NCBI RefSeq assembly: GCF_000422245.1
Contig: NZ_ATHI01000004.1
Span: forward strand, 62,001-126,000
Direction: 5' to 3'
Length of the DNA stretch: 64,000 nt
Source: Alkalidesulfovibrio alkalitolerans DSM 16529
Lineage (GTDB): Bacteria; Desulfobacterota; Desulfovibrionia; Desulfovibrionales; Desulfovibrionaceae
Every line of letters begins with the position of its first letter. The first letter of the stretch is position 1. Position numbers and translations under genes: made by a program. Positions 37,044 through 63,730 of this stretch are shown piece after piece. Under the pieces are notes generated by a model. It worked only from the letters and a program-made list of their open reading frames with translations, was not told the origin of the DNA and made no database searches.

Positions 37044-38981
37044 ATGAAGCGCACGCTCACCGCCTGCACGCGGCACTGCAACGACGGCTGCTCCCTGATC
37101 GTGGAGCAGGGGGACGACGGCCGCACGACCATCCGGGGAAATCCCGACCATCCCTTCACCGCAGGGTTCATCTGCGCCAAGACCGCGCGCTTCATGGATC
37201 GCCTGAACGCGCCCGAACGCATCGTCCATCCGCTGGCGCGCGACAAGGCCGGAGGCGGCGAATTTCGCCGCGTCTCCTGGGACGAGGCGTACGACCTGAT
37301 CGCCGCGCGGCTCGACCCTCTGCGCGCTACACCCCAAGATATTTTGCACGCTTACGGCTTTGCCTCCTTCGGCGTGTTGCACAAGGCCTCGCGCCATCTC
37401 TTCGCCCTGCTCGGCAGCGCTCAGGCCACGGGCTCCATGTGCCTCGGAGCGGGCGTGGCCGCCATGAAGGGCATGTTCGGGGCGCTCGTGGAGCCGGACT
37501 ATTTCGAGCTTGTAAACGCGCGCGTCATCGTCAACTGGGGGCGCAACATGGACGCCCACAGCCCGCATGTGGCCCGCATCGTGGACCGGGCGCGGGGCAA
37601 GGGCGCGCGCGTGCTGGCCATCACGCCGGGCGACCCGGGCTACGCGCCGCACACGGACGCGCATGTGCGCATCAGACCCGGCACGGACAGGTTTTTGGCC
37701 GCAGCCACCCTGCGTCTGCTGCACGACCGGGGCGGGCTGGACGATGCGGCGCTTTCGCGCGCGGCCAATGGTCGGGAGTTTCTGGCCATGCTCGTCGGGA
37801 TCGACGTTGCGGCGGCGCTCGACGCCTCGGGAGCGCGCCTTGAGGATGCCTTGGCCCTGGTCGACGCCTACGCCCAAAAGCCCGCGGCCACGCTGCTCGG
37901 CCGAGGGCTACAGCGCTATGCCTTCGGTGGCGAGAACGCGGCCTTCACGGCCGCCCTGGCCGTGGCCACGGGCAACGTCGGCATTCCCGGCGCGGGCGTG
38001 TTTTACGCCACGGGCGACAGGGGCGTCATGGTCCCGGCCTTCAAGCCGCCGCGCGAAAAGCCGCCGCGCACCTTCAGCTTCGTCGATCTGGGCGGGGAAC
38101 TGCGCCGCGCCCGCGAAGCCGGGCAGCCCGTGCGCTTCGTCTGGGTGGAAGGCACCAACGTGGTCACCCAGGGCCAGGACAGCGCGGCCGTGCGCGATGA
38201 GTTGGAGCGTGCCTTCACTGTGGTCGTGGAGCCTTTCATGACCGATACCGCGCGCACGGCGGACGTGATCCTGCCTCCGGCCCTGATGCTCGAATGCCGC
38301 GACGCGGTGTCGGGGTCGCAGCATGAATGGTTGCACTATTCGGCCCAGGTCTTCGCGCCGCGCGGCGAGGCCAAAAGCCCCTTCGCCATCGCGCGCGAAC
38401 TGGCCGGGCGGCTCAATCCGCCCGTGGACTTTCCGAGCGAGGACGAGGCACTGGCCCGGGCCCTCAAGGGCCGCAAGATGAAGACAACCCTTGCGGAGCT
38501 GGAAGCCAGGGGGTGCATTCAGGGGCCGCCGCCGGGCATTCCCTTCATGGACGGAAAGTACGCGCATCCAGACGGCCTGTGCCGCCTGCCCGCGGAACTG
38601 CACGCCGAGCCCGCAGCGCCCGAGGGGCTGCCGCTGCGGCTCGTCAGCTATGTGCAGAAGCGCTATCTGCTCTCCCAGGTGCCCGAAGGCGAGCAGGAAG
38701 GCCCGGCCACGGCTTGGCTGGCACCGGAACTGCTGCGAAGCCTCGGTCTTGCACCGGGCGAGGCCGCGGCCCTTCACGGCGAGCGGGGGAGCATGGACGT
38801 GGTGCTTGCCGCGCAGGAAGGGCTTTCGCCGGACTGCGTGCACGTGCCGCGCGGCGACTGGCTCTCGCGCGGGCGCTGCGTGAATCTTCTGACCGCGGGC
38901 CGCAAGACCGACATGGGCGAACTCGCCGCCTACTACGACCAGTGGTGCCGCATCGAGCGGCAAAGTTTAGCGGGGGAATGA
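37044..38981 (+). CDS. Single-subunit molybdopterin oxidoreductase, paralogue B
   Basis: 645-residue cytoplasmic bis-MGD enzyme of the DMSO-reductase superfamily. The Fe4S4 cysteines are C8, C12, C16 and C44 and the predicted metal ligand is C133 (GSMCLGAG), exactly the positions of paralogue A at 18485-20437. Other features: NWGRNMDAHSP, VWVEGTNVVTQGQD and PRGDWLSRGRCVNLLT. No signal peptide and no partner subunit nearby. ggaggcc precedes the ATG. Substrate unknown; thiosulfate/polysulfide reductase-like, formate dehydrogenase-like or hydratase-like functions all remain open. Confidence 0.85.
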   Translation: MKRTLTACTRHCNDGCSLIVEQGDDGRTTIRGNPDHPFTAGFICAKTARFMDRLNAPERIVHPLARDKAGGGEFRRVSWDEAYDLIAARLDPLRATPQDILHAYGFASFGVLHKASRHLFALLGSAQATGSMCLGAGVAAMKGMFGALVEPDYFELVNARVIVNWGRNMDAHSPHVARIVDRARGKGARVLAITPGDPGYAPHTDAHVRIRPGTDRFLAAATLRLLHDRGGLDDAALSRAANGREFLAMLVGIDVAAALDASGARLEDALALVDAYAQKPAATLLGRGLQRYAFGGENAAFTAALAVATGNVGIPGAGVFYATGDRGVMVPAFKPPREKPPRTFSFVDLGGELRRAREAGQPVRFVWVEGTNVVTQGQDSAAVRDELERAFTVVVEPFMTDTARTADVILPPALMLECRDAVSGSQHEWLHYSAQVFAPRGEAKSPFAIARELAGRLNPPVDFPSEDEALARALKGRKMKTTLAELEARGCIQGPPPGIPFMDGKYAHPDGLCRLPAELHAEPAAPEGLPLRLVSYVQKRYLLSQVPEGEQEGPATAWLAPELLRSLGLAPGEAAALHGERGSMDVVLAAQEGLSPDCVHVPRGDWLSRGRCVNLLTAGRKTDMGELAAYYDQWCRIERQSLAGE

Positions 38982-39109
38982 GGAGGAGACCCATGCGCGT
39001 CGCCAGCCAGCCGCTAGGTGCTGGCTCGCCGGGTATGGCCTTCAAAAAACGCGACTTGTCCCCCATCGTTTTTCTTGGCAGGTACTCTCTTGTGTCGGTC
39101 GTAAAGCTG

Positions 39110-39161
39110 TTCTTTCAGTCGGCGTGACCTGCGGAGCGGTGGCAACCGCTTACTGAAAGAA
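39110..39161. terminator. Nested inverted repeat between convergent genes
   Basis: Outer arms ttctttcagt (39110-39119) and actgaaagaa (39152-39161), inner arms agcggt (39135-39140) and accgct (39145-39150). It lies 3' of the molybdopterin gene and just beyond the stop of the leftward unknown gene, so it probably ends transcription from both sides. It also marks the edge of the AT-rich island. Confidence 0.55.
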
Positions 39162-39167
39162 ATTCAT

Positions 39168-40187
39168 TTATCGTTGTCTCCGGAAATGCACCTCTGAAGA
39201 CAGACGCTGAAGGGCGTCGAGTGATTTGGCGAGCTCGTTCATCTTTATACGCTCAGGCTCTACCGCGAGTATTCTAAATATCCTTTCCGCATGGTAGATG
39301 TGAAGATGGAGTCCACGATCATCTGCCATTCCACGGGCCGGGGCGAGCAACTCTTTTTCGATCTTCTGCTCTGCGTCATCACTTCCGAATATGCCTTTGA
39401 TCAATATAATGTCTTCGACAAGGGCATCGCGATATTCATCGCGCTCCAAGAAGCTTACTTCTGGGGAAGTGATTGACGAAAGCGAACGGTCAGGCCAGTC
39501 TTCGCGTTTTTTGCTATATGTCGATTTTGCGAAAGCATTCCAGTTCCCAAGCAACCCCATGAGGTGTCGGTGTGATTCGAATGTTTTATGCCAAATTATA
39601 TAATCCAAGAGGCGGCGTATGGTTCGGCGCTGGACAAGAACATAGTCATCGCATTGAGAAAGTGGGCCAAAACGTTGGCTGTGTAAATTGACTATTATTT
39701 CGTTGATAGCTGGGATTATGATCTCATGGCCACCTCCGTGGGTGTTGTAGTATATGAAAAGGGCGTTTATATTTTTCTCTGTGTCTTTGAATCTTCCCTC
39801 ATGGGCTAGCTTTATGGCGTCTCTTTTAAGGTCAACGACAGTATCGTTGAATTTCCTGAAACGAAACGACACGCTTCGGCTTTGAATGTTGTGGATACTG
39901 ATAGGATCAAGGACGAATTCACTATTTTCCGTTCTTGCCCATGAAACGGATGCAATTTTTTCTCTATCTATCGGGATGGAAATCTTTAAAAGTCCTGCCG
40001 TGTAATGTCTTTCTGCGCCAGATTCATTTGTGACGGTCAAGGTGAACTTGTTGCACTCGTTGGAATATTCTTGGTTATGCGGATATATATCAATAAATAT
40101 GTCGAGCTCTTGGTTGTCCTGTGCGGCATTTGCGGCGCCAAGTATTATGAATATAAAAGCAAGACTAAGGATAGATAAACGCAACAT
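39168..40187 (-). CDS. Unknown secreted protein in AT-rich island
   Basis: 339 residues. A cleavable signal peptide is clear (LRLSILSLAFIFIILGAANA-A), followed by a beta-rich segment (about 25-115; LDIFIDIYP, FTLTVTNESG) and then mostly helical sequence. No family recognised. Third positions are AT-rich, unlike every gene outside the island, pointing to recent transfer. The ATG at 40187 follows ggggg; the frame also has a TTG two codons earlier. It overlaps the upstream membrane-protein gene by 23 bp, so the two probably act together in the envelope. Confidence 0.75.
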   Translation of the reverse strand: MLRLSILSLAFIFIILGAANAAQDNQELDIFIDIYPHNQEYSNECNKFTLTVTNESGAERHYTAGLLKISIPIDREKIASVSWARTENSEFVLDPISIHNIQSRSVSFRFRKFNDTVVDLKRDAIKLAHEGRFKDTEKNINALFIYYNTHGGGHEIIIPAINEIIVNLHSQRFGPLSQCDDYVLVQRRTIRRLLDYIIWHKTFESHRHLMGLLGNWNAFAKSTYSKKREDWPDRSLSSITSPEVSFLERDEYRDALVEDIILIKGIFGSDDAEQKIEKELLAPARGMADDRGLHLHIYHAERIFRILAVEPERIKMNELAKSLDALQRLSSEVHFRRQR

Positions 40188-40821
40188 GGCCAAGCCCCCT
40201 ATCTTTTATGTCTAATTCATCTCTACTGCGAGCTGCTGTTGATCCGTCTTTGTAATGAATATGTAATGTTGACATTGAGTTGAATTCTTTAGTTGTTATG
40301 ATAGATGCATATTCATGTTTTAATTCAGACTTAAAAAATGGAAGAATATCTTTTGCCCTGAAGTATATTAACTTTCTATCTTTCGACATTGTATCTGTTG
40401 TTTCGATGTATGATTGATATATTTGAGAGTCATTTTTGAGAACAAGAACAACTTTTCCTTTCATAAAAATTGTATTCACAAATCCAAACGCTATAAAGCA
40501 GAGAAGAAAAAGAGATATGAGAAGTGAGCATGTCTCTTTCCCTTTGATTATTGACAGAGAAAGAAGAATTCCTAGTATTATTACAATAATAGACGATATA
40601 ATGGTGAGCGATTGCGGATAGAAATATTCTTCTGCAACGATCTTCGATATGATTGAGCTTGAAAGAAAAATAGGTATGCTACACAGGGCGAAAACGAGGA
40701 GGGTTTTTTTCTCAACGATTCTTTTGAGGTACAATGCGAATAGTGCGGAGGAATATATGGAGACGTTGATGAGCGGTTCGAAAAAGAAAGAGAAATTTAT
40801 CGGGATCGTGAGGTCGTCCAT
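40165..40821 (-). CDS. Unknown membrane protein in AT-rich island
   Basis: 218 residues, no recognised family. Four hydrophobic helices fill the first about 125 residues (LINVSIYSSALFALYL, TLLVFALCSIPIFLS, LTIISSIIVIILGILL, LLISLFLLCFIAFGFV); the rest is a soluble domain of about 90 residues ending near RSRDELDIKDRGLG. Strongly AT-rich codons. First gene of a two-gene leftward unit with the secreted protein. No transposase or integrase borders the island. Confidence 0.72.
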   Translation of the reverse strand: MDDLTIPINFSFFFEPLINVSIYSSALFALYLKRIVEKKTLLVFALCSIPIFLSSSIISKIVAEEYFYPQSLTIISSIIVIILGILLSLSIIKGKETCSLLISLFLLCFIAFGFVNTIFMKGKVVLVLKNDSQIYQSYIETTDTMSKDRKLIYFRAKDILPFFKSELKHEYASIITTKEFNSMSTLHIHYKDGSTAARSRDELDIKDRGLGHVAFIYP

Positions 40822-40957
40822 CGGAGTCTCCGTTTGCTATTTGATATTTTCTTGGCCGAACTGTGTCAATTCAATATTGTATTGCGCATAAATATGATGT
40901 GCCTCAAATTGGATTTGATGCCTTGTTCGTTTAGTCTGGAAACGGAGGTCGGTGCCC

Positions 40958-41524
40958 ATGAGGCTGCATTGTTCTATTGCGCAGGCGCTCATTGATGTGG
41001 ATTTGCGTCGCCAAGGGCATGGTTCGGAAGTTGCTCGCCTGAGTACGCGAATCGTGTTCTCGATGGCGATCGCCATTTTGGCCGTGTCGGTGTGCGCCGG
41101 GTCGGCCCTGGCGCAGACGCGGGTGCTGGAGGCCACGCTCGCGCCGGGCCTGGACCTCGATCCCGACTCGCCGCGTTATCGTGAGCCCGTGGGCGGCGTG
41201 TCCCTTGCGCCGCCGTGTGGAGGCGATGCCGCAACCCTCGCGCCAAGGGTCTTCTCACAGGTCTATTTGTGGCTGCGTCTGGCCTCGAACGAGCCCGTGC
41301 GCCTCACCGCCACCTGGAACCATCTGCCCGAAGGCGAAGACCCCGCCGACATGACGGCCTGGCGCGTCGCCCAGACCACACAGGTCAACATCCCGACAAC
41401 GCAGGGCTTTCGAATCTGGCTGCTCAGGAACATGGACCGCGCGCGCGACACGGGCAGGTTCATCGTGACCATCGCCGCTGACACGGGCGAGGTCGTCTGC
41501 TCCGTGCCCTTCGTCTATCGATGA
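40958..41524 (+). CDS. Secreted protein of unknown function
   Basis: 188 residues with an unusually long N-terminus before a signal-peptide core (MAIAILAVSVCAGSALA-QT). The mature part (about 140 residues) is beta-rich with two conserved-looking segments, VYLWLRLASNEPVRLTATW and GRFIVTIAADTGEVVCSVPFVY; it loosely recalls DUF2914-type domains but I cannot assign it. The ATG at 40958 has acggagg nine bases upstream. A later ATG at the signal core has no ribosome site. Its stop overlaps the next gene's ATG by four bases, indicating an operon with the C-GCAxxG-C-C protein. Confidence 0.7.
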   Translation: MRLHCSIAQALIDVDLRRQGHGSEVARLSTRIVFSMAIAILAVSVCAGSALAQTRVLEATLAPGLDLDPDSPRYREPVGGVSLAPPCGGDAATLAPRVFSQVYLWLRLASNEPVRLTATWNHLPEGEDPADMTAWRVAQTTQVNIPTTQGFRIWLLRNMDRARDTGRFIVTIAADTGEVVCSVPFVYR

Positions 41525-42246
41525 CAGGCAAGGTGCCGAGATTTCCTATGGGTTTCGCCATCGGCATCGGACTTTCCGATTTGACGCCGCACAGCCATAC
41601 GCTTAGCACGAGAGACATGAGTCTCCCTATCTGCCGTCAACGCGCCGCCGAATCTTTTGATTGCGCCGATTCTGACCTTTCCGGCCCGTCTGATGGGCTG
41701 TACTGCCTCCCGAACGCGAACCTTGCACCCGGCGCCGCCGCTGTTCGCGAGCGCGCCAGAAATCTCTATGAAAGCCGCCGCATGCTCTGCGCCGAGGCCG
41801 TGCTTGCGGCCGTGAACGAGGGGTTCGACTGCGGTTTGAGCGAAGAGCAGGCCGTGGCTCTCACGGCCGCGCTGCCCGTGGGACTTGGCGGCAGCGGTTG
41901 CCTGTGCGGTGCGGTCTCTGGCGGGGCGGTGGCGCTTGGCCTTTTGCTCGCGCGCGAACCGCGCTGCCTGTCACGGGCGGAAATCAGAAAGGCCTCGGCC
42001 CGACTGCATGACGATTTCAAAAAGGCCTACGGCTCAACCTGCTGCCGGGTGCTGTGCAAAAAGGTCAAGGACGACCGCAAGGCCCATTTCGCGCAATGCG
42101 CAAATCTTACCGCCGTCGCGGCCGGGGCGGCCGTCTCGCTGGCCATCGAGCTTCGGCCCGAGCTTGGCGAGGCGGCCGTCCAAAGGCCGCTTGCCCGCGA
42201 CAACCGCCTCACGGCGCTCGTCAAGCGCCTACGCGCCCGGTTCTGA
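41521..42246 (+). CDS. C-GCAxxG-C-C family redox protein (DVU_1555-like)
   Basis: 241 residues. The conserved core matches the cysteine-rich C_GCAxxG_C_C family, probably redox-active: RRMLCAEAVLAAVNEGF, then GLGGSGCLCGAVSGG, STCCRVLCKK and HFAQCANLTAVAA. The first about 85 residues look weakly conserved and have lower third-position GC, so the real start may be the ATG at 41617; 41521 is given because its ATG overlaps the upstream stop (ATGA). It is coupled to a membrane rhodanese downstream (TGATG overlap), suggesting a sulfur or thiol relay. Confidence 0.75.
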   Translation: MTGKVPRFPMGFAIGIGLSDLTPHSHTLSTRDMSLPICRQRAAESFDCADSDLSGPSDGLYCLPNANLAPGAAAVRERARNLYESRRMLCAEAVLAAVNEGFDCGLSEEQAVALTAALPVGLGGSGCLCGAVSGGAVALGLLLAREPRCLSRAEIRKASARLHDDFKKAYGSTCCRVLCKKVKDDRKAHFAQCANLTAVAAGAAVSLAIELRPELGEAAVQRPLARDNRLTALVKRLRARF

Positions 42247-55186: not shown

Positions 55187-57835
55187 TCAATGCGCCTCGG
55201 CCCAGGTGGGGCCGACGCCCCAGTCCACTGCCAGGGGCACGGAGATATCCACGGCCGAGGTCATGATCCCGGCCAGGCGTTCGCCCGCCTCGCGCGCGGC
55301 GTCCTTGGGGGCCTCGATGACCAGTTCGTCGTGCACCTGGAGGATCAGCCGCGCGCCGAGCGCGCGCAGCCGCTCGTCCTCGTGCGCGCGCAGCATGGCC
55401 AGCTTGATGATGTCCGCGGCCGAGCCCTGCACGCGCGTGTTGATGGCCTGGCGCACGGCCTGGGCCTGCTCGTTGTCGTTGCGCGAGAACAGCCCCGGCA
55501 GAAGCCGCCGCCTGCCGAACATGGTGGTCACGTAGCCGTCGCGCCGCGCGTCGCGCTCCACGCCCTCGAAGAATGCCTTCACCGCTGGCATGCGCTCGAA
55601 ATAGCGGGCGATGAACTCCTTGGCCAGGGTCAGCGTGATCTTCAGCTCGCGAGACAGCCGCTGCGGCCCCATGCCGTAGAGCAGGCCGAAGTTGATGGTC
55701 TTGGCCGCGCGCCGCTCGTCGGGCGTGACCTCGCCCGGCTCCTTGCCGTGCAGGATCGCGGCCGTGCGCGCGTGGATGTCCTCCCCGGCGGCGAAGGCCT
55801 TGGTCAGTTCCGGGTCGCCGCACAGGTGCGCGAGCAGCCGCAACTCGATCTGCGAGTAGTCGGCCGAGGCCAGCAGGCGGCCCGGCCCGGCCGTGAAGCA
55901 GGCGCGCATGCGGCCGCCCATCTCGCCCCGGATGGGGATGTTCTGCAGGTTCGGGTTGGAGCTCGAAAGCCTGCCCGTGGCCGTGGAGAGGTTGTTGAAC
56001 GTGGTGTGGATGCGGCCGTCCGGCCCCACCAGCCTCGGCAGCGGTTCGAGATAGGTGGAGCGCATCTTCTCGTAGCCGCGATAGGTCAGCACCAGGTCGA
56101 TGACCGGGTGCTCCCCGGCCATCTTCTCCAGCACGGCCTGCGAGGTGGAGGGCAGCCCGCCGGGCGTCTTGCCGCGCGGCTTGAGCGAGAGCCGGTTGAA
56201 GAGCAGGTCGGCCAACTGGTGCGAGGAGCGGACGTTGAACTCCTCGCCGGGCGAAAGCCCGGCCGCCTCGCGGATGGCCTCGGTCAGTTCCGCGAGCTTG
56301 TCCGTGACCTCGTCCAGGAAGCTCTCGAAGGCCCCGAGGTCGATGGCCACGCCTGCCTCCTCCATGTCGCGCAGGACCGGCAGCAGCGGCAGTTCGAGCT
56401 CGGCGTAGAGGCGCTCCATGCCGGCCGCCTTGAGGCGCTTGGCGAGCAGCTCGCCCAAGGAGCGCGCGGCAAGGCCCGGCGCGTCGTCGGGCAGGGACGG
56501 CATGTCCGGGTCGGCCTCGTAGGCCGCGAGCAGATGCGTGAGGCCGTACTCGCGTTCCTCGGGGTTCAGGAGATAGGCCATGAGCCCCAGGTCGCGCACC
56601 TTGGCGAAGGGCAGGGCGCGCCAGGCCCCGGCCGCCCTGGGCCGGGCCAGGATATCCTTGAAGGAGGGCGCGGCAAGGCTCGCTGGTCCGGCCTGGGGCG
56701 CGGCCAGGGCCTTGGCCAGGGCGGCTTCGTCGCCCGTGTAGAGCAGTTCGCGGCCGTCAAGGCCGAGCGCCATGCCGTCCGGCAGCGGCGCAAGGCCAAC
56801 GTGCATGCCCGAAAGTTCCGGCAACTCCCCAGGCGTGGCGACGCGCTCGGCCGAACTCTTTGGCTCGGCTTTCGGCCCATTCACGTAATCCAGCAGGCTC
56901 ATGCCCCCGGCCTTGGCGCTTGACGCGGCCACGGACGCGGCTTTTTGCGGCGCGGGCAGGGTGGAAAGCTCGCGCGCCAGGGAGCCGAATTCGTAGCGGG
57001 CCATGAATTCCTTCAGGCCCGCGATGTCCGGCGCGGCGGGCGTGAGCGCGGCCAGGTCGGTGGTGTGGCAGAACGTGGTGCGCAGCCGCGTCAGCTCGCG
57101 CCACCTGAGCGCGTCCTCCAGGCGGCCATCGAGCTTCTTGCGGTACTTCTCGGGCAGTTCATCGAGCCCTTGCCAGATGGCCTCCAGGGTGGGGAAGCGG
57201 GCCATGATTTCGGCCGCGGACTTGGGGCCGATGCCCGGGACGCCCGGGATGTTGTCCGAGGAGTCGCCCGTGAGGGCCTGGAAGTCCGGCCACGACGACG
57301 GCGCAAGGCCGGTCTCGCCCGTGAATTCGGCCAGCCCCGTGAGCTTGTCCTGCTTGCCCGCCGGATCCCACAGCCAGACACGCTCGGCCAGGCACTGCTT
57401 GAGGTCCTTGTCCGCGCCGACGATGATCACAGGGTGGCTTGGCCGCAGGCGTTCGGCCAGCGAGGCGATGCAGTCGTCGGCCTCGCCGCCCTCGGAGACG
57501 ATGACCGGCAGCCCGAAGAGGCGCAACGCCTCCTTGATGGGCTCGATCTGGACGAGGAGGTCTTCCGGCGTGGCTTGGCGCTGGGCCTTGTATTCGGAAT
57601 ATATCTCGTTGCGGAAGGTGGGGCCTTTGCCGTCGAGGAAGAAACCGATGGCCCGTGGCTTTTCTTCGCGCAGGATCTTCATGATCATGCGCAGGACAAC
57701 GAAGAGCGCGTTGGTGGGAAAGCCTTCGCGTGTGCTCATGTCGCGAAAGGCATAGAAACCGCGGTAGACGAAGGCGGAACCGTCCACGAGAAAGACGGGC
57801 TCGGCGGAAAGGTTCAATCGATCCTTGAGGGGCAT
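55187..57835 (-). CDS. polA: DNA polymerase I
   Basis: Repair and Okazaki-fragment polymerase, 882 residues. The N-terminal 5' nuclease is complete (FLVDGSAFVYRGFYA, GGEADDCIASL, GADKDLKQ, GDSSDNIPGVPGIGPKSA). The polymerase has motif A (DYSQIELRLLAHL), motif B (RRAAKTINFGLLYG) and motif C (QVHDELVIEAP). The middle exonuclease region lacks the acidic DxE-type residues where E. coli has them (the segment reads VGLAPLPDGMALGLDG), so proofreading is probably lost. It follows the DHH gene by 4 nt in one leftward unit. Confidence 0.95.
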   Translation of the reverse strand: MPLKDRLNLSAEPVFLVDGSAFVYRGFYAFRDMSTREGFPTNALFVVLRMIMKILREEKPRAIGFFLDGKGPTFRNEIYSEYKAQRQATPEDLLVQIEPIKEALRLFGLPVIVSEGGEADDCIASLAERLRPSHPVIIVGADKDLKQCLAERVWLWDPAGKQDKLTGLAEFTGETGLAPSSWPDFQALTGDSSDNIPGVPGIGPKSAAEIMARFPTLEAIWQGLDELPEKYRKKLDGRLEDALRWRELTRLRTTFCHTTDLAALTPAAPDIAGLKEFMARYEFGSLARELSTLPAPQKAASVAASSAKAGGMSLLDYVNGPKAEPKSSAERVATPGELPELSGMHVGLAPLPDGMALGLDGRELLYTGDEAALAKALAAPQAGPASLAAPSFKDILARPRAAGAWRALPFAKVRDLGLMAYLLNPEEREYGLTHLLAAYEADPDMPSLPDDAPGLAARSLGELLAKRLKAAGMERLYAELELPLLPVLRDMEEAGVAIDLGAFESFLDEVTDKLAELTEAIREAAGLSPGEEFNVRSSHQLADLLFNRLSLKPRGKTPGGLPSTSQAVLEKMAGEHPVIDLVLTYRGYEKMRSTYLEPLPRLVGPDGRIHTTFNNLSTATGRLSSSNPNLQNIPIRGEMGGRMRACFTAGPGRLLASADYSQIELRLLAHLCGDPELTKAFAAGEDIHARTAAILHGKEPGEVTPDERRAAKTINFGLLYGMGPQRLSRELKITLTLAKEFIARYFERMPAVKAFFEGVERDARRDGYVTTMFGRRRLLPGLFSRNDNEQAQAVRQAINTRVQGSAADIIKLAMLRAHEDERLRALGARLILQVHDELVIEAPKDAAREAGERLAGIMTSAVDISVPLAVDWGVGPTWAEAH

Positions 57836-57839
57836 GGCG

Positions 57840-58856
57840 TCAGGCGTCCGGGGTTGCGGTGGGCATGTGCTCGGTGCAGCACTGCAATTTTTTGCCGTCG
57901 AAGCGCGAGCAGAGCAGGATTTCGGGCGACGTCTTCAGGGCCTTCAGGTCGATCTCGGCCCGCGCAGCCTGGCGATGGCCGCCCGCGCTGCCCACGTCGC
58001 CGAACATCTCGCTGGCCATGACGCCCACGTCCTGCTCCAGGCCGTCACCCCGGAAGATGACGACCAGCGTGGGGCCGCACTTACCGGCGATGGCCGTCCA
58101 GTTGATCTCGTGCACACGCAGGAAGAAGTCGGCCAGGATGACCAGAATGTCCGGGTTCTCCACCTCGCCCATGTAGACGTAGGCCCCGTGTTCGCAGATC
58201 TCCAGGCGTTCGAGCGCGGCGCGGAAATAGTGCAGCCAGTGCAGGTGGTATTCGCTGCGCACGATCTTCTTCAGGGCCATCTGGTTGGCGAACTTGGTCA
58301 GATGGCGGAAGGCGCGCACGTCCGTGTCGCAAAAATTACGCTCGAAGCTCTGGGTGTCGGACTTGATGCCGTAGAGCAGGGCCGTGGCCAGGAGCGGGGA
58401 GGGCTTGATGCCCAGGTTGTAGAGGTATTCCGTGAGCAGGGTGGAGCAGGCCCCGTATTCGGTCCTGATCTCCGTGAAGGGAGCGGCGACGGGCGATTCG
58501 GCCTTGAGCGGATGATGGTCGAGGACGATGGAGAATTCAAGGCCCTCGAAGGCTGGATTGTGGTGCGGCTGCGAGTCGACCAGGGCGAGACGGTCGTAGT
58601 GCGAGGGCATGCGCTTGGTGAGCATGTGGGTGGGGATGCGCAGGGTGCGGATCATGGTCAGGTTGTCGGGCCTGCGCACCTCGTTGATGTGGGCCAGGCT
58701 CACCTTGGCCACCCGGCGGCCGATGATGCGCTTGAGCGCCATGGCCGAGGCCATGGAGTCCGGATCGGCGTTCATCAGGATCAGCCAGCGCTGCTTCTTG
58801 TCGAGAAGCCCGATGAGCCGCTTCATCTCCTCGGCCAGCACCCGGAAATAGGCCAT
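57840..58856 (-). CDS. DHH-family phosphoesterase (NrnA-like)
   Basis: 338 residues. The metal-binding motifs of the DHH superfamily are visible: LMNADPDSMASAMAL (DxD), VDSQPHHN and the eponymous DHHPL, with a C-terminal DHHA1-like part containing GSAGGHRQAAR. Related enzymes degrade nano-RNA, pAp or cyclic dinucleotides; which applies here is unclear. An aaggagaaac ribosome site precedes the ATG. It lies 19 bp behind cobU and 4 nt ahead of polA. Confidence 0.87.
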   Translation of the reverse strand: MAYFRVLAEEMKRLIGLLDKKQRWLILMNADPDSMASAMALKRIIGRRVAKVSLAHINEVRRPDNLTMIRTLRIPTHMLTKRMPSHYDRLALVDSQPHHNPAFEGLEFSIVLDHHPLKAESPVAAPFTEIRTEYGACSTLLTEYLYNLGIKPSPLLATALLYGIKSDTQSFERNFCDTDVRAFRHLTKFANQMALKKIVRSEYHLHWLHYFRAALERLEICEHGAYVYMGEVENPDILVILADFFLRVHEINWTAIAGKCGPTLVVIFRGDGLEQDVGVMASEMFGDVGSAGGHRQAARAEIDLKALKTSPEILLCSRFDGKKLQCCTEHMPTATPDA

Positions 58857-58875: not shown

Positions 58876-59388
58876 TCAGCCCTTGAGCCTGAGCGGCAGC
58901 CCGGCGGCCACGAACCAGGCCTCGTCGGCCAATGTGGCCACGCGCCGGTTCACGGCTCCGAGCTCGCGCACGAAGGCCCTGGTCGCGCCATCCCCGGCCA
59001 CGGGGCAAAGCCCGGCCTCCTGCGAGACCACGACGACCGAGGGCCCCTGGCTCGCAAAAGCCCGGAGCGCCTCGCACAGCGCATCGGCCTGCGCTTGGAG
59101 CGTGTCCGACATGATGCAGGAAAACAGCCAGAAATCAAGGCTGTCCACGAGCACGGAGGTTTGCGCCGCGCCAAGACGTGTAAGCTCTTCCGACAGGTTC
59201 TCGCGCGCTTCGATCACCGGCAGGGCGGCGTCTCGGCCCTGTTTGTGGGCCATGATGCGGCGGGCGAAGTCCGGGTCCTCGGCTCGACCCGTGACCAGGA
59301 GGGCGCGGGGCGCGGGCGCGTTCGCAAGCATGGCCAGGGCGTGGTCGGACTTGCCCGATGACTGCCCGCCGAGCACCAGGGCGATCAT
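58876..59388 (-). CDS. cobU: Adenosylcobinamide kinase / guanylyltransferase
   Basis: Corrinoid salvage enzyme that phosphorylates adenosylcobinamide and transfers GMP to it, 170 residues. P-loop GGQSSGKS at the N-terminus, SVLVDSLDFWL, VSQEAGLCPV and the C-terminal NRRVATLADEAWFVAAGLP match CobU/CobP. The sequence in the position of the usual catalytic histidine region (ARRIMAHKQGRD) carries H as expected. Its ATG comes 1 nt after the cbiR stop, implying coupled translation. Confidence 0.92.
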   Translation of the reverse strand: MIALVLGGQSSGKSDHALAMLANAPAPRALLVTGRAEDPDFARRIMAHKQGRDAALPVIEARENLSEELTRLGAAQTSVLVDSLDFWLFSCIMSDTLQAQADALCEALRAFASQGPSVVVVSQEAGLCPVAGDGATRAFVRELGAVNRRVATLADEAWFVAAGLPLRLKG

Positions 59389-59389
59389 C

Positions 59390-60169
59390 TCAGCCCGCCG
59401 AGGTGGTCATGACGTGATGCAGGACGGCCAGGGACTCGGCCAGCCCCTCGGGTTCGAAGACCTCGGGCATGACCACGGTGTCGGGCCCCATGCGCGAGAG
59501 GATGACGCGGAGCAGGCGGCGTCCCTCGCGGTCGAGCTCGGTCAGCGGCAGATGGCGGTCGCCGTCGCCGGGCGCGCTCAGGTGCAACAGCTTCACGCGC
59601 GGCCACAGCCGGGGCAGGTCCAAAAGCCGCTCCTGGTTGTAGGCGATGAGGTGCCCAAGATCGAGGCAGACGTTCAGGCCCAGGTAGCGGATGTCGCACC
59701 AGAACTCCAGGGGGTTGAATTCCTTGGTGTTCTCCAGGAGGATGCGGTCGGGCTTGATGCCCTGGTGGATGAAACAGAAGGCCACCTCGTCCAGAAGCTT
59801 GGCGTGCGGCGGGGCATGCAGCACAAAGCTCCAGGGATCGAGGAAGGCGGTCTTGTCGAGCAGCCCCTCGATAATGTGGCGCACGGCCAGGATGCCCTGG
59901 CTCCACGGCAGGTCCAGAGGCAGATGCAGGTGGTAACGCAGCGAGAGTTCGGCCATGGTCGGGGGCAGGTCTTCCTCGGTGTAGGCCAAGCTCGCCTGGG
60001 ATTCGAAAAGGACGATGCCGACCTCGTCGAAGACTTCGCCCAGACGACGGCAGTTCTCGCCCACGGTTCCGGGCCAGACCCAGGAGGGCGCGGCCAGGCG
60101 GAAGGGGAAGTCGGTGGGGCCGACGCTGAGTGTGAGCGGGCCTTCAGAAGTCTGTTTTTTCAGGGGCAT
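59390..60169 (-). CDS. cbiR: Cobamide-remodelling phosphodiesterase CbiR
   Basis: 259-residue TIM-barrel protein of the AP-endonuclease-2/xylose-isomerase superfamily. The N-terminal APSWVWPGTVGENCRRL and VGIVLFES and the metal-site segments HLHLPLD, LHAPPH, LLENTKE and VCLDLGHLI agree with CbiR, which hydrolyses the phosphoribosyl bond of cobamides so the lower ligand can be exchanged. Coupling to cobU supports this: the cobinamide product is CobU's route of re-activation. No cobalamin riboswitch is visible upstream. Confidence 0.82.
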   Translation of the reverse strand: MPLKKQTSEGPLTLSVGPTDFPFRLAAPSWVWPGTVGENCRRLGEVFDEVGIVLFESQASLAYTEEDLPPTMAELSLRYHLHLPLDLPWSQGILAVRHIIEGLLDKTAFLDPWSFVLHAPPHAKLLDEVAFCFIHQGIKPDRILLENTKEFNPLEFWCDIRYLGLNVCLDLGHLIAYNQERLLDLPRLWPRVKLLHLSAPGDGDRHLPLTELDREGRRLLRVILSRMGPDTVVMPEVFEPEGLAESLAVLHHVMTTSAG

Positions 60170-60547: not shown

Positions 60548-63500
60548 TCATATCAGGGAAATCTGGCGCTCCTGGCGCATGGTTCGCGGCACCAGGGCGG
60601 ACGCCTTGAGCAAGCCGTCGGGCAGCACGTCGAGGAAGCGCGAACCCACGAGCTTCAGTTCGCGTCCGTACAATTCTCGCGCCACTGCCCGCGAAAGGTA
60701 CAGCCGCCCCTTGGAGCGCGTGAGGCCAACGTAGAACAGGCGGCGTTCCTCGTCCAGGGGCGGCCTGCCTTCGTCGGATTCTGCCCCGCCTCCTATCTTG
60801 CCAGTGAGCACGCCCGCGCCCGCGTAAGGCACAATGCCGTCCTCCAGGGCAGGCAGGAAGACCGCCTCGAATTCGAGCCCCTTGGCCGCGTGCAGGGTCA
60901 TGATCTGGACTTTCTCGGCCTTTTGCCGCACCTGCTCGATCTCGCTTTGCAAGTCCACCCAGTTGATCAACCCGGCCCAGCCGCCCTGTTCGTCAAAGGA
61001 ACGTGAAAGCTCGCGGAAGGCTCGGCCCTGCCAGAATGCGCGGTCAAAGGGCGCGGCGTCCTGCAAAAAGGCCGCAAGGCCGAGAGGCCCGCGCGCCAGC
61101 ACCTTTTCGGGGATGGTCAGGTTGGTGCCCAGGACGCCTGTTGGCTCCTCCGGGCCGGTCATGCCCAGGAATTCCTTGGCCGTGGTCAGGATCGCCGCGG
61201 CGCGCGGCTCGTTCCAGAAGGCTTCCATCTCCGGCACGGCGCAGGGCACGCCCACGCGTTCGAGCGCCCGCCGGATGGGCGGGGCCAGCGACTTGAGACG
61301 CACCAGCACGGCCACGTCGCCGGGAGAGAGTCCCGCGCCCGCGCCGCCGTCGAGGGTGGACGAGCCACCGCCGAGCAGGTTGCGCACGCGCTCGGCGATC
61401 CAGGCCGCCTCGCGGGCCGCGTCGGGCGCGGTGAAGAAGAGCTGCTCGCCGCGCTCGGGCTTGTGGCCCACGAGCGGCGAGCGTCCAGGCATGAGCGCGG
61501 CTGCGAGCGACAGGATGGGCGCTGCGCTGCGGTAGTTCTCCGAGAGGCGGACCACGGAAAGATCGGGCCACACGGCCGCAAGATCGGCCGAGACGTCGGC
61601 CAGGGCCCCCCGGAAGGAGTAGATGGACTGGTCGGGATCGCCGATGGCGAACAGTCCCCGGCCCTCTGGTCCGGCCAGGGCCTTGACCACGGCCAGTTGC
61701 AGGGCCGAGAGATCCTGGACCTCGTCCACCAGCAGGTGCGTGTGGCGGCGCACGTAGATGCCCGACTCGATCTGCTCGCGCCAGAATTCCAGAAGGTCGG
61801 CGTAATCGACCAGGTTCCAGTATTCCTTTTTCTTGACGTAGGGGCGGAAGGCCTCGGCCATCTCTTCGCTCACGGCCAGACTTTCGCGGGCCAGCATGTA
61901 GCCGTCGTAGGCCGCGCGCAGCCGCTGTCCGGTCAGCTCGGGCAGACATTCGGCGAAGACGCGGCGGCTGGACTCCTCGTCCATGACCGTGGGGGCCTCG
62001 TCGTAGGCCCCGGCCCAGTATTCGAAGGCCAGGGCGTGCAGCGTGTCGGCCTGGGGCAGGCTGTCCGCGTCGCGGCCCGATGCGGCCAGGCGTTCGCGCA
62101 TCTCCTGGGCCGCGCGGCGGGTGAAGGTCAGGCACAGGATCTCGCGTGCGGGCACGCCCTTGGCGAGCAGCGCCTGGACCCGGCCCATGAGCGTCTGGGT
62201 CTTGCCCGTGCCGGGTCCGGCCACCACCAGCACCGGTCCCGGTCCGGCCGCGATGGCCGCTTGCTGCTCGGCGTTGTAGGAAATCTCGCGCGGGCTGGGT
62301 TTGTCGCGGCGCGGGGCGGCAGGCACGTCCGGGGCGGTTTTCCCGCCAAAAACGTCGGAATCGGGCGCAGGCGGTGTAAGGGAATCCGACGGCGCGGCCG
62401 CCTTTTGTCCGCATTTGGCGGAGGGGGAGAAGCCCGGAGCCAGGAAGCGACCCTGGCGCATCTGGCTCTTTTCGGCCTTGGAGAAGACCGAGATGACGCC
62501 GAACTGGCCGTCGAAGCCGGGCTCGCGGATGACCTTGCCCGCGCGCATGCGCGAGAGCGCCTCGCCGAGCAACGGGTGGACGCGGACCAGTTCCTCGGGC
62601 GGCGCGTCGCACAGCACGGCCATTTCCGAGCCGATGCGCGAGACGGCCTTGGTGTAGAGCGCGCGGGCCTTCTTGGTGGCGGGCCCCACGCCCAGGACCT
62701 CGCCGATGACCTCGGAAAGCGGGATGAGCGAGGTGAAACCAGGCTGCCCCGGCGGCGTCACGGGAGTCTCGCGGTCGGCCAGGTCCATGACGCGGTGCAG
62801 GACGCCGAGCGTCAGCGGCTTGCCGCAGACCGGGCAGAGATCGCCGCGCGCCTTGGACTCGCGGGGTTCGAGCACCACGCCGCACTTGCGGTGGCCGTCG
62901 AGGTGGTACTTGCCCTCCTCGGGGAAGAACTCCAGCGTGCCCAGGAACTCGTGGCCCAGCCCCTCGCCCTTGAGCGAGCGGTAGATGGTCTCGTAGGAGA
63001 CCTCGCCCGAAAAGATGTTGGCCTCGCGGCCGAGCTTCTCGCCCGAGTGGGCGTCGGAGTTGGAGATCAGGCGGAAACGGTCGAGCTTGGAGATGAGGCG
63101 GTTCATCTCGGGATCGGAGGACAGGCCCGTCTCCAGGGCGAAAACCTCGTGCGCGAGGTCGCCGAAGCATTCCTCCACGGAGTCGAAGCCGGAGTTGGAG
63201 CCGAAGAGCGAGAACCACGGCGTCCAGATGTGCGCGGGCACGAGAAAGGCCATGCCGCCCAGTTCCAGGACCATCTCCAGCAGGTGCCGCGCGTCCAGGC
63301 CCAGGATCGGGCGGCCGTCGGAGGTCAGGTTGCCTATGGCGGAGAGCTTTTCGTTGAGTTTTTTGGCTTGAGAGAAGCCGGGCACGTAGATCAGGTTGTG
63401 GATTTTGCGCACCCGGCCGCCGCGCTTGTAGATGGAGCTGATCTCGGCCTGGAGCATGAAGCGCACGCGCCCAGGCGGCAGAAATCCGTCGAGGCTTTCG

Positions 63501-63730
63501 ATCTCCGAGGCCAGGCCCTGTTGCGAGCGCAGGGAGAGAAGACCCCGGCCGTCCTCGACGCAGGCCTCCTCCAGTTCTTCGAGCCATTTGGGATGCGTGA
63601 AGTCGCCCGTGCCCACCACGTCCAGACCCTTGACCAGGGCCCAGGCGGCGAGGTTTCGCGGGGTCAGGGCCCTGGAGGTGGCCCGAGAGTGACGCGAGTG
63701 GATGTGCAGGTCGGCCCTGAAGAGTTCCAT
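60548..63730 (-). CDS. Endonuclease-Q-like PHP domain fused to UvrD/Rep helicase
   Basis: 1060-residue fusion. Residues 1 to about 410 are a PHP-type EndoQ domain: FRADLHIHSRHSRATS, DVVGTGDFTHPKW, SNSDAHSGEKLGREAN, and a Zn-binding segment ending CPVCGKPLTLGVLHRV. EndoQ nicks DNA at uracil, hypoxanthine, xanthine and abasic sites. After a Pro-rich linker (about 430-490) comes a full superfamily-1 helicase: GPGTGKTQTLMGR (Walker A), TFTRRAAQEMRERL, LLVDEVQDLS (Walker B), GDPDQSIYSFRGA, and TLHAAKGLEFEAVFLP. The ATG at 63730 matches EndoQ N-termini though its ribosome site is weak. A nick-and-unwind repair enzyme is the natural inference. Confidence 0.88.
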   Translation of the reverse strand: MELFRADLHIHSRHSRATSRALTPRNLAAWALVKGLDVVGTGDFTHPKWLEELEEACVEDGRGLLSLRSQQGLASEIESLDGFLPPGRVRFMLQAEISSIYKRGGRVRKIHNLIYVPGFSQAKKLNEKLSAIGNLTSDGRPILGLDARHLLEMVLELGGMAFLVPAHIWTPWFSLFGSNSGFDSVEECFGDLAHEVFALETGLSSDPEMNRLISKLDRFRLISNSDAHSGEKLGREANIFSGEVSYETIYRSLKGEGLGHEFLGTLEFFPEEGKYHLDGHRKCGVVLEPRESKARGDLCPVCGKPLTLGVLHRVMDLADRETPVTPPGQPGFTSLIPLSEVIGEVLGVGPATKKARALYTKAVSRIGSEMAVLCDAPPEELVRVHPLLGEALSRMRAGKVIREPGFDGQFGVISVFSKAEKSQMRQGRFLAPGFSPSAKCGQKAAAPSDSLTPPAPDSDVFGGKTAPDVPAAPRRDKPSPREISYNAEQQAAIAAGPGPVLVVAGPGTGKTQTLMGRVQALLAKGVPAREILCLTFTRRAAQEMRERLAASGRDADSLPQADTLHALAFEYWAGAYDEAPTVMDEESSRRVFAECLPELTGQRLRAAYDGYMLARESLAVSEEMAEAFRPYVKKKEYWNLVDYADLLEFWREQIESGIYVRRHTHLLVDEVQDLSALQLAVVKALAGPEGRGLFAIGDPDQSIYSFRGALADVSADLAAVWPDLSVVRLSENYRSAAPILSLAAALMPGRSPLVGHKPERGEQLFFTAPDAAREAAWIAERVRNLLGGGSSTLDGGAGAGLSPGDVAVLVRLKSLAPPIRRALERVGVPCAVPEMEAFWNEPRAAAILTTAKEFLGMTGPEEPTGVLGTNLTIPEKVLARGPLGLAAFLQDAAPFDRAFWQGRAFRELSRSFDEQGGWAGLINWVDLQSEIEQVRQKAEKVQIMTLHAAKGLEFEAVFLPALEDGIVPYAGAGVLTGKIGGGAESDEGRPPLDEERRLFYVGLTRSKGRLYLSRAVARELYGRELKLVGSRFLDVLPDGLLKASALVPRTMRQERQISLI

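Follow-up and report, generated by a model that had tools for sequence, protein, structure and literature searches.

The window analysed here, a stretch of 64,000 nucleotides from Alkalidesulfovibrio alkalitolerans DSM 16529 (order Desulfovibrionales), contains one uninterrupted open reading frame in which an EndoQ-type nuclease and a UvrD-type helicase, both detected as domains, form a single protein (Table 1), and the observation of this fusion in the initial annotation is confirmed. Based on its predicted anatomy, which also fits the nick-then-unwind idea put forward in that annotation, we regard this protein as probably (probability roughly 0.6) a clamp-tethered nick-and-unwind enzyme that would initiate the repair, by DNA polymerase I (Pol I), of uracil, hypoxanthine and abasic (AP) sites. 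The broader proposal, that a clamp-tethered EndoQ-helicase acting by 5' incision, unwinding and Pol I synthesis has displaced UDG and EndoV in Desulfovibrionales and mainly handles the repair of cytosine and adenine deamination there, and that it constitutes an unrecognised repair enzyme in many phyla, is a tentative one, whose chances we place slightly short of even. The clamp-type tail, the DHH/polA neighbourhood, the split-gene relatives and the scarcity of UDG and EndoV described below are additions of the present analysis.

Table 1. Positions in the window of the fusion gene, its parts and the genes downstream of it
Feature	Position	Strand	Basis or remarks
EndoQ-UvrD fusion gene	60548..63730	-	1060 aa, start ATG; domains by profile and phmmer searches
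EndoQ-type nuclease domain, aa 1-425	62456..63730	-	alignment to PfuEndoQ, residue conservation
Linker, low confidence, aa 431-479	62294..62440	-	pLDDT < 50 (AlphaFold2)
UvrD/Rep-type SF1A helicase domain, aa 482-1050	60581..62287	-	profiles, motifs, Foldseek
C-terminal pentapeptide QISLI, beta-clamp-binding-type	60551..60565	-	sequence motif within low-confidence tail
cbiR, cobamide remodelling phosphodiesterase	59390..60169	-	NF041277 189.7 bits, cut-off 105
cobU	58876..59388	-	PF02283
DHH-domain phosphoesterase gene	57840..58856	-	PF01368
polA, DNA polymerase I	55187..57835	-	NF004397 831 bits, cut-off 720

Domains of the fusion protein

The assignment of the N-terminal part to EndoQ is borne out by a phmmer search of the PDB sequences, in which aa 6-421 match residues 5-388 of PfuEndoQ (5zb8) with 195.7 bits (E 8.9e-57), and by the AlphaFold2 model, which Foldseek aligns with the same structure at a TM score of 0.89 (by target length) and 33% identity. 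The roles of the PfuEndoQ residues are taken from sections of a review (PMC8307549) and were transferred by alignment to PDB sequences. According to these sections, cleavage by PfuEndoQ is abolished by Ala at E76, H84 or H139, and its residues H139, G169 and S171 shut out T and A while letting in U and Hx. In the alignment, the catalytic residues correspond to E96, H111 and H167 of the window protein and those gating the pocket to H167, G202 and S204, and all five of these positions, as well as H9, H11, D43, E200 and H228, are identical in 88/88 aligned rows and in 79/79 fusions from the collection. The PHP metal ligands, for which a check against EndoQ had been suggested, are intact on this alignment. 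For the zinc ligands the expected agreement is found for three cysteines, but the first Cys of EndoQ is replaced by His280, so that the zinc site of the fusion consists of three Cys and one His (viz. H280-C283-C299-C302). The H280 position is occupied by His in 77 and by Cys in 2 of the 79 collection fusions, and within the 88 aligned rows by His in 86, by Cys in one (PfuEndoQ) and by Gln in one. Four zinc-domain cysteines have been proposed as a possible signature of the EndoQ family (in an extract of PMC4357722), and because the HCCC site of the window protein departs from this four-Cys signature, the name EndoQ-type is used here. In two genomes of the order (G095 and G100), Asn is present at D226, and the crystal chain 7k30 of PfuEndoQ likewise has Asn at the equivalent Asp193. 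Since neither of these two genomes has a UDG match (PF03167), either the D226N variant is functional or the activity is dispensable there. Overall, the fusion shares with Endonuclease Q (Pyrococcus, Thermococcus, Methanosarcina and Bacillus; 5zb8, 7k30) the fold, the catalytic and gate residues, a zinc domain and a clamp-type C-terminal tail, but it differs from it in carrying a helicase, with the clamp-type motif at the helicase end, in the His at the first zinc position, and in its TIGR00375 (NCBIfam) score of 176 bits, which lies under the curated cut-off of 326.6.

The remainder of the protein matches PF00580 (aa 486-711, 142 bits) and PF13361 (aa 919-1014, 107 bits), both over their cut-offs, and the best Foldseek match of this part is UvrD (2is6), with 1pjr and 1uaa also found. 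The description of this part as a complete SF1A helicase holds in that motifs I to VI are all there (I at 504, II at 669, III at 697, IV at 732, V at 945 and VI at 995), but the span between motifs IV and V (the 2A/2B region), compared by its length only and not by residue-by-residue mapping, is short, viz. 215 aa as against 254 in the ordinary UvrD of the same genome. All 67 fused rows, the window protein and its own duplicate among them, retain AGPG[AT]GKT in motif I and DE in motif II, and 66 of the 67 also retain the Q of motif II. The helicase thus has the fold and motor motifs of the UvrD/PcrA/Rep helicases, but unlike them it is preceded by an N-terminal nuclease and has the shorter motif IV-V span. 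The two halves are joined by a predicted disordered linker of about 49 residues, and because they share one frame in 109 of the 120 genomes sampled from the order, the fusion should not be interpreted as an assembly join. The pTM of the AlphaFold2 model is 0.56, due to which the relative arrangement of the domains in it is a low-confidence prediction.

C-terminal tail and gene neighbourhood

The fusion ends in the motif QISLI, in place of which a relative from the same genus has QIQLM, and a tail of this type is present in 46 of 65 fusions and in 72 of the 79 collection fusions, where shuffled ends give expectations of 0.85 and 1.2, respectively; the pattern used was single and fixed, but it was defined after the tails had been viewed. 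No such tail was found on the ordinary UvrD of the same genome. Extracts of PMC4858679 describe binding of archaeal EndoQ to PCNA via a C-terminal PIP box and note clamp motifs in bacterial EndoQ homologs, and the fusion tail is a probable, putative beta-clamp-binding motif. However, as a clamp motif QISLI is weaker than QLSLF, which counts against a clamp tether.

The window neighbours of the fusion are cobamide, DHH, polA and MoCF genes. The polA gene begins 4 bases past the DHH gene, and of the 28 loci examined in the order, a DHH gene lies downstream of the fusion (same strand, within 3 kb) in 23 and a PolA gene in 18. Counting against the preferred reading, the linkage is missing for PolA at 10 and for DHH at 5 of these 28 loci. 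In the window itself, a gap of 378 bases separates the fusion from cbiR, and the two cobamide genes, which are probably unrelated to repair, stand between the fusion and the DHH/polA pair, which also counts against this reading.

Repair of deaminated bases and the proposed mechanism

UDG is usually called the most conserved DNA glycosylase across the domains of life (as stated in a part of PMC4858679). However, a UDG-superfamily match, the absence of which here means the lack of a PF03167 match, is absent from 91 of the 120 sampled genomes of the order and from 84 of the 109 that bear the one-frame fusion; 7 of the 29 genomes with a match are among the 60 sampled from the source family. An EndoV match is absent from 117/120 genomes, and in the source genome neither UDG nor EndoV was matched. 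As these two enzymes are mostly undetectable in the order, the fusion is perhaps its main entry to uracil and hypoxanthine repair. Genes for dUTPase, Xth, Nth and MutY are present in the source genome, as is one for a MagIII-like HhH protein that scores below its cut-off. Xth and the MagIII-like protein count against such a main role; for one archaeon, a published account describes an Xth homolog as a uridine endonuclease. Outside the order, of the 42 fusion genomes tested, 41 have UDG, which rules out a general tie between the fusion and loss of UDG; a replacement of UDG would therefore be specific to the order, and elsewhere the fusion would supplement glycosylase repair rather than replace it. 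The earlier idea of an alternative to glycosylase-based repair is thus tenable for the order, but not as a general rule. Within the order, UDG is matched in 3/5 genomes with EndoQ missing or decayed (four of which are drafts, with completeness of 53-94%) versus 25/109 fusion genomes, a difference that is not significant (Fisher p 0.09), and a loss of the fusion tracking the presence of UDG was not retained.

The mechanism that we propose builds on features read from sequences and models, viz. the domains, the catalytic and gate residues, the helicase motifs, the tail motif, the gene linkage and the missing UDG and EndoV matches. From these we infer the nuclease and helicase activities and a role in repair. 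The EndoQ-type domain would flip a deaminated base (uracil or hypoxanthine) or an AP site into its pocket and would nick the lesion strand on the 5' side of the lesion. The linked SF1A motor, for which 3'-5' translocation is carried over by analogy from UvrD (in a portion of PMC7776575), would then travel along the intact strand, past the nick and over the lesion, peeling away the 5' end that bears it, while the C-terminal QxxLF-type tail could tether the enzyme to the beta clamp where the new 3'-OH lies. The gap would be refilled by DNA polymerase I, whose 5' nuclease would trim the flap, and ligase would seal the strand. A glycosylase-independent nick near the deaminated base likewise begins the alternative excision repair initiated by EndoV (extracts of PMC4357722 and PMC7776575); however, EndoV cuts 3' of the lesion and EndoQ 5' of it, and EndoV went unmatched in 117 of the 120 sampled genomes of the order. 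If the proposal is correct, then an order of anaerobes mostly without recognisable UDG or EndoV depends on one cut-and-unwind polypeptide, and at least 14 named phyla of bacteria have related enzymes. The order would then offer a natural UDG-poor background for genetic tests of glycosylase-free uracil repair, and the fusion would be a candidate clamp-tethered nuclease-motor for study.

The same parts could also work in the opposite order, with the motor unwinding the DNA before any cut is made (stalled forks or polymerases being possible sites) and feeding single strands to a scanning EndoQ domain. In keeping with this, PfuEndoQ efficiently cleaves U and Hx in single-stranded DNA (in an extract of PMC11354406), the flexible linker permits either order, and a clamp-type tail suits association with forks. 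Although sequence alone does not separate the two orders, the polA linkage and a 5' incision suit nicking first better, and we regard unwinding first as unlikely. It is also conceivable, but distinctly improbable, that the protein serves more generally as a helicase in repair or recombination, with a nuclease directed to AP sites or another lesion rather than to uracil and hypoxanthine. Its substrate preference is a prediction from sequence, its zinc site is HCCC instead of CCCC, and the fusion genomes elsewhere nearly all have UDG alongside it, which are points in favour of such a reading, but the invariance of the residues matching PfuEndoQ H139, G169 and S171 argues against it.

An anti-phage function, in which the fusion would attack foreign (e.g. 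uracil-containing) DNA with a Gabija-like helicase, is very improbable. The PADLOC models for GajB, with which the fusion has a UvrD-like motor in common, match the helicase (best 198 bits), and a possible involvement of bacterial EndoQ in antiviral defence is mentioned in the review cited above (PMC8307549, in part). However, since the PcrA (211 bits) and UvrD (197 bits) models match the same helicase, the GajB matches need mean only shared SF1 homology. Further, unlike Gabija, the neighbours seen at the fusion locus are not defence genes, the fusion is present in most genomes of the order and frequently upstream of polA, and searches of viral contigs and of plasmid and phage records gave, at the limits applied, no relatives of it. 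The nick-and-unwind enzyme described above is the reading that we prefer.

Distribution and history of the fusion

EndoQ has been described as confined to Euryarchaea and a few bacteria (in an extract of PMC8438529), and the initial annotation likewise spoke of few bacteria and asked how widely the fusion occurs. Besides being common in the source order, it occurs at 79 of the 80 highest-ranking loci retained from the collection, in 14 named phyla, and its interpretation as a rare fusion is ruled out. Searches of open-access papers gave no description of an EndoQ-UvrD fusion, nor anything related on Desulfovibrio UDG absence or UvrD fitness, and in the main text of a Desulfovibrio vulgaris genetic screen (PMC10102598) the words endonuclease, helicase, UvrD and DNA damage are absent.

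The quick trees that were constructed (EndoQ, 93 rows; helicase, 75 rows) sampled 37 of the 79 collection fusions, 33 fusions from the phylum and order, and the window protein. In the EndoQ tree, whose root rests on PfuEndoQ with an end branch of 9.8 that was flagged as unsure, all 71 fused rows, including the window protein, fall in one set (support 99), as do 6 stand-alone proteins, and the 3 split proteins and a further 12 stand-alone ones lie outside it. In the helicase tree, which has a single outgroup, the fused and split rows require one change (support 71). A single origin of the fusion is neither shown nor excluded by either tree. The nearest kin of the source order differ between the two trees, due to which the two domains may have separate histories. 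Of the stand-alone EndoQ loci in the phylum, a UvrD gene adjoins in only 2/20 and the tail pattern is matched in only 10/20. At three loci (L071, L072 and L133), a separate UvrD gene comes after the EndoQ gene, and each of the six split proteins ends, as judged by eye, in a clamp-type motif; these split-gene relatives hint at a route by which such a fusion may have arisen.

Domain organisation and conserved residues

The initial annotation had described this gene (see the table) as an Endonuclease Q (EndoQ) domain fused to a UvrD/Rep helicase, and this domain assignment is correct. Residues 6-421 of the window protein match Pyrococcus EndoQ (PfuEndoQ, 5zb8) with 195.7 bits, the helicase half contains PF00580 (residues 486-711) and PF13361 (919-1014), both above their cut-offs, and in Foldseek searches with an AlphaFold2 model built from a 42-row alignment (mean pLDDT 85.4, pTM 0.56) the nuclease half matched PfuEndoQ 5zb8 and the helicase half UvrD 2is6, with TM-scores by target length of 0.89 and 0.62, respectively. 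The pLDDT falls below 50 at residues 270-274, 431-479, 789-798 and 1051-1060.

Coordinates of the fusion gene and of the neighbouring or minor features
Feature	Coordinates	Strand	Remarks
EndoQ-UvrD fusion ORF	60548-63730	(-)	ATG start, 1060 codons without a stop
cbiR and cobU	58876-60169		cobamide genes
DHH-family protein	57840-58856		only the N-terminal DHH domain recognised
Segment of lower G+C	38001-42000		G+C 0.52-0.58, about 0.65 elsewhere
MoCF_biosynth gene	L206 516-1307		outside the window
2-thiouracil desulfurase-family gene	L206 1304-1846		PF04463; outside the window

According to a review (PMC8307549), the catalytic zinc ligands of PfuEndoQ are Glu76, His84 and His139, replacement of any one of which by Ala abolishes cleavage, and His139, Gly169 and Ser171 exclude T and A from the pocket. 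The counterparts of these residues in the alignment, viz. E96, H111, H167, G202 and S204, are identical in 88/88 rows, which comprise 66 fusions (one being a duplicate of the window protein), 20 stand-alone EndoQs, PfuEndoQ and the window protein itself, and in all 79 one-frame fusions from a genome-collection scan (collection fusions). The zinc site is HCCC instead of the CCCC of PfuEndoQ, its His being common to 77/79 collection fusions. D226 is replaced by Asn in 2/88 rows (L030 from genome G100 and L031 from G095), at the position of PfuEndoQ Asp193, where the 7k30 chain differs from 5zb8 likewise; the PF03167 search of the order sample gave no uracil-DNA glycosylase (UDG) match in either genome, and these two proteins are possibly decaying or altered enzymes.

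In the motor half, all 67 fused rows, two of which stand for the window protein and its second copy, retain motif I (AGPG[AT]GKT) and the motif II residues DE; the motif II Q is found in 66 rows and is His in L031, and the L041 row is cut off before motif VI. The region between motifs IV and V is short in the window protein and variable across the family, since it spans 215 residues here versus 254 in the separate UvrD-type helicase of the same genome, 208-234 in the measured order members and 187-299 in the collection fusions for which both motifs could be located. As this separate UvrD/PcrA-like helicase (721 residues; best NCBIfam match PcrA, 435.6 bits, below the cut-off of that model) is present, the fusion is not the sole UvrD-type helicase of the genome.

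Distribution of fused and split forms

A match was found in 119/120 sampled genomes of the order, probably Desulfovibrionales. When all 120 were sorted by hand, 109 had both halves in one frame (including G067, with an internal TAA), 6 were partial, frame-broken or split over contigs, 4 had no match to the EndoQ part, and one (G119) had a decayed copy with an internal TAG. The EndoQ remnant of the latter (L111) lies in a 2.2 Mb genome with a UDG-superfamily match, and its helicase part was unmatched in the stretch fetched. In the phylum sample (297 genomes), the matches listed show that some genomes carry the fused form, others a stand-alone EndoQ and others neither. The genome-collection scan matched at least 590 relatives, and 79 of the best 80, which were kept, are one-frame fusions, a result biased towards fusions because the queries were fused proteins. 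Among these best 80, 72 fusions belong to 14 named phyla (including Bacillota 19, Thermodesulfobacteriota 12, Actinomycetota 11 and Myxococcota 10) and 7 carry no phylum name, although single assignments may be wrong because most titles are those of MAGs. A pattern scan of viral contigs, a plasmid search with the whole protein (E-value limit 1e-60) and a phage search with the EndoQ part (1e-10) gave no relative.

No description of an EndoQ-helicase fusion was found in the accessible parts of the open-access EndoQ literature (PMC4357722, PMC4858679, PMC8307549, PMC8438529, PMC7776575, PMC11354406), and one may exist elsewhere. In PMC4357722, a Desulfovibrio homolog is named, bacterial homologs are stated to be similar over the entire region of EndoQ, and Figure 9A gives domain structures with lengths; its authors may have seen the longer protein.

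At two of the 20 stand-alone EndoQ loci of the phylum sample (L071 and L072), the gene immediately downstream, in the same orientation, encodes a separate UvrD, and the other 18 showed no match to the window helicase within the fetched stretch. The same split arrangement is seen in L133, a Nitrospirae MAG and the sole locus of the best 80 that is not in one frame.

Clamp-type C-termini

The consensus for beta-clamp binding is QL[SD]LF; the window protein ends in RQERQISLI and the separate UvrD in YLEMEDA. One fixed pattern for a clamp-binding-type pentapeptide in the last 20 residues, chosen after the tails had been seen, is present in 46/65 order and phylum fusions (leaving aside L003, which is the duplicate, and L041, which is truncated), 10/20 stand-alone EndoQs and 72/79 collection fusions, where shuffled ends would give 0.85, 0.07 and 1.2; among internal 20-mers it occurs in 30/3364, 1/395 and 37/4064, respectively. 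Many of the 19/65 tails outside the pattern come close to it (e.g. RISLF, RMDLF and HLSLF). At L071, L072 and L133, clamp-type motifs were seen by eye at the ends of both EndoQ (QGTLF, which the fixed pattern does not cover, QMRLL and QLGLF) and the helicase (QMGLF, QMELFS and QLTLF), and because both partners end in this manner, the sequences suggest that two clamp clients were later joined in the fusion.

In archaea, a C-terminal PIP box of EndoQ binds PCNA with a KD of 55 nM and PCNA stimulates EndoQ (PMC4858679). C-terminal beta-clamp motifs in bacterial homologs had already been pointed out by the authors of that work, and the motif itself is therefore prior art; no mention of it at a helicase C-terminus was found in the available text of PMC4858679 or of other open-access EndoQ literature.

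Repair background, proposed route and gene neighbourhood

PF03167 (UDG superfamily) was matched in 269/297 genomes of the phylum sample, but in 0/13 sampled from the family of the window. In the order sample (control positive in 13/14 genomes) 29/120 genomes had a match, 23 above the family cut-off and only four at 1e-30 or better; 7/60 genomes from the family of the window had a match, the source genome had none, and 84/109 fusion genomes of the order lacked one. In other lineages, however, UDG is present in 41/42 fusion genomes tested (of 79 at hand, the completeness of the 42 not being stated), and therefore it is the order, not the fusion itself, that is characterised by scarce UDG. EndoV was found in 3/120 order genomes and in 0/101 of those of best quality, by a search whose control was positive in 6/14 genomes. 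The source genome encodes dUTPase, Xth, Nth and MutY, together with an HhH protein that resembles MagIII but scores below its cut-off.

EndoQ incision leaves a 3'-OH and a 5' phosphate (PMC4357722), the latter on the lesion-bearing nucleotide because the cut is made 5' of the lesion, and UvrD translocates 3'-5' (PMC7776575). If the motor were loaded on the intact strand it would travel from the nick across the lesion, and hence the damaged end would be displaced before Pol I arrives. Movement along the nicked strand would instead peel the healthy side, and the intact strand would be the favoured one if a clamp sat at the 3'-OH. We infer these steps; for archaea, one of the possible routes already drawn has a helicase acting once EndoQ and EndoV have both cut (Figure 10 legend of PMC4357722).

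The gene order in the window is fusion, cbiR, cobU, DHH and polA, with gaps of 378 bases between the fusion and cbiR and 4 bases between DHH and polA. From 31 order loci picked to span 30 genera, 28 were counted, leaving out L111 (decayed) as well as L116 and L121, where the contig stops short. A DHH gene is encoded downstream in the orientation of the fusion in 23/28 and PolA in 18/28, DHH follows immediately in L094 and L119, and neither is downstream in L088, L089, L092, L108 and L110. The two cobamide genes lie between the fusion and DHH-polA in many genera and are absent in some, where the fusion adjoins DHH. Of the four genes that follow the fusion, the one for the DHH-family protein is the most constant at the examined loci; no solved structure resembles this protein closely, TmPDE being the best match (E 0.0086). 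At locus L206, the 2-thiouracil desulfurase-family and MoCF_biosynth genes lie upstream of the fusion on its strand. The segment of lower G+C in the window is possibly acquired DNA.
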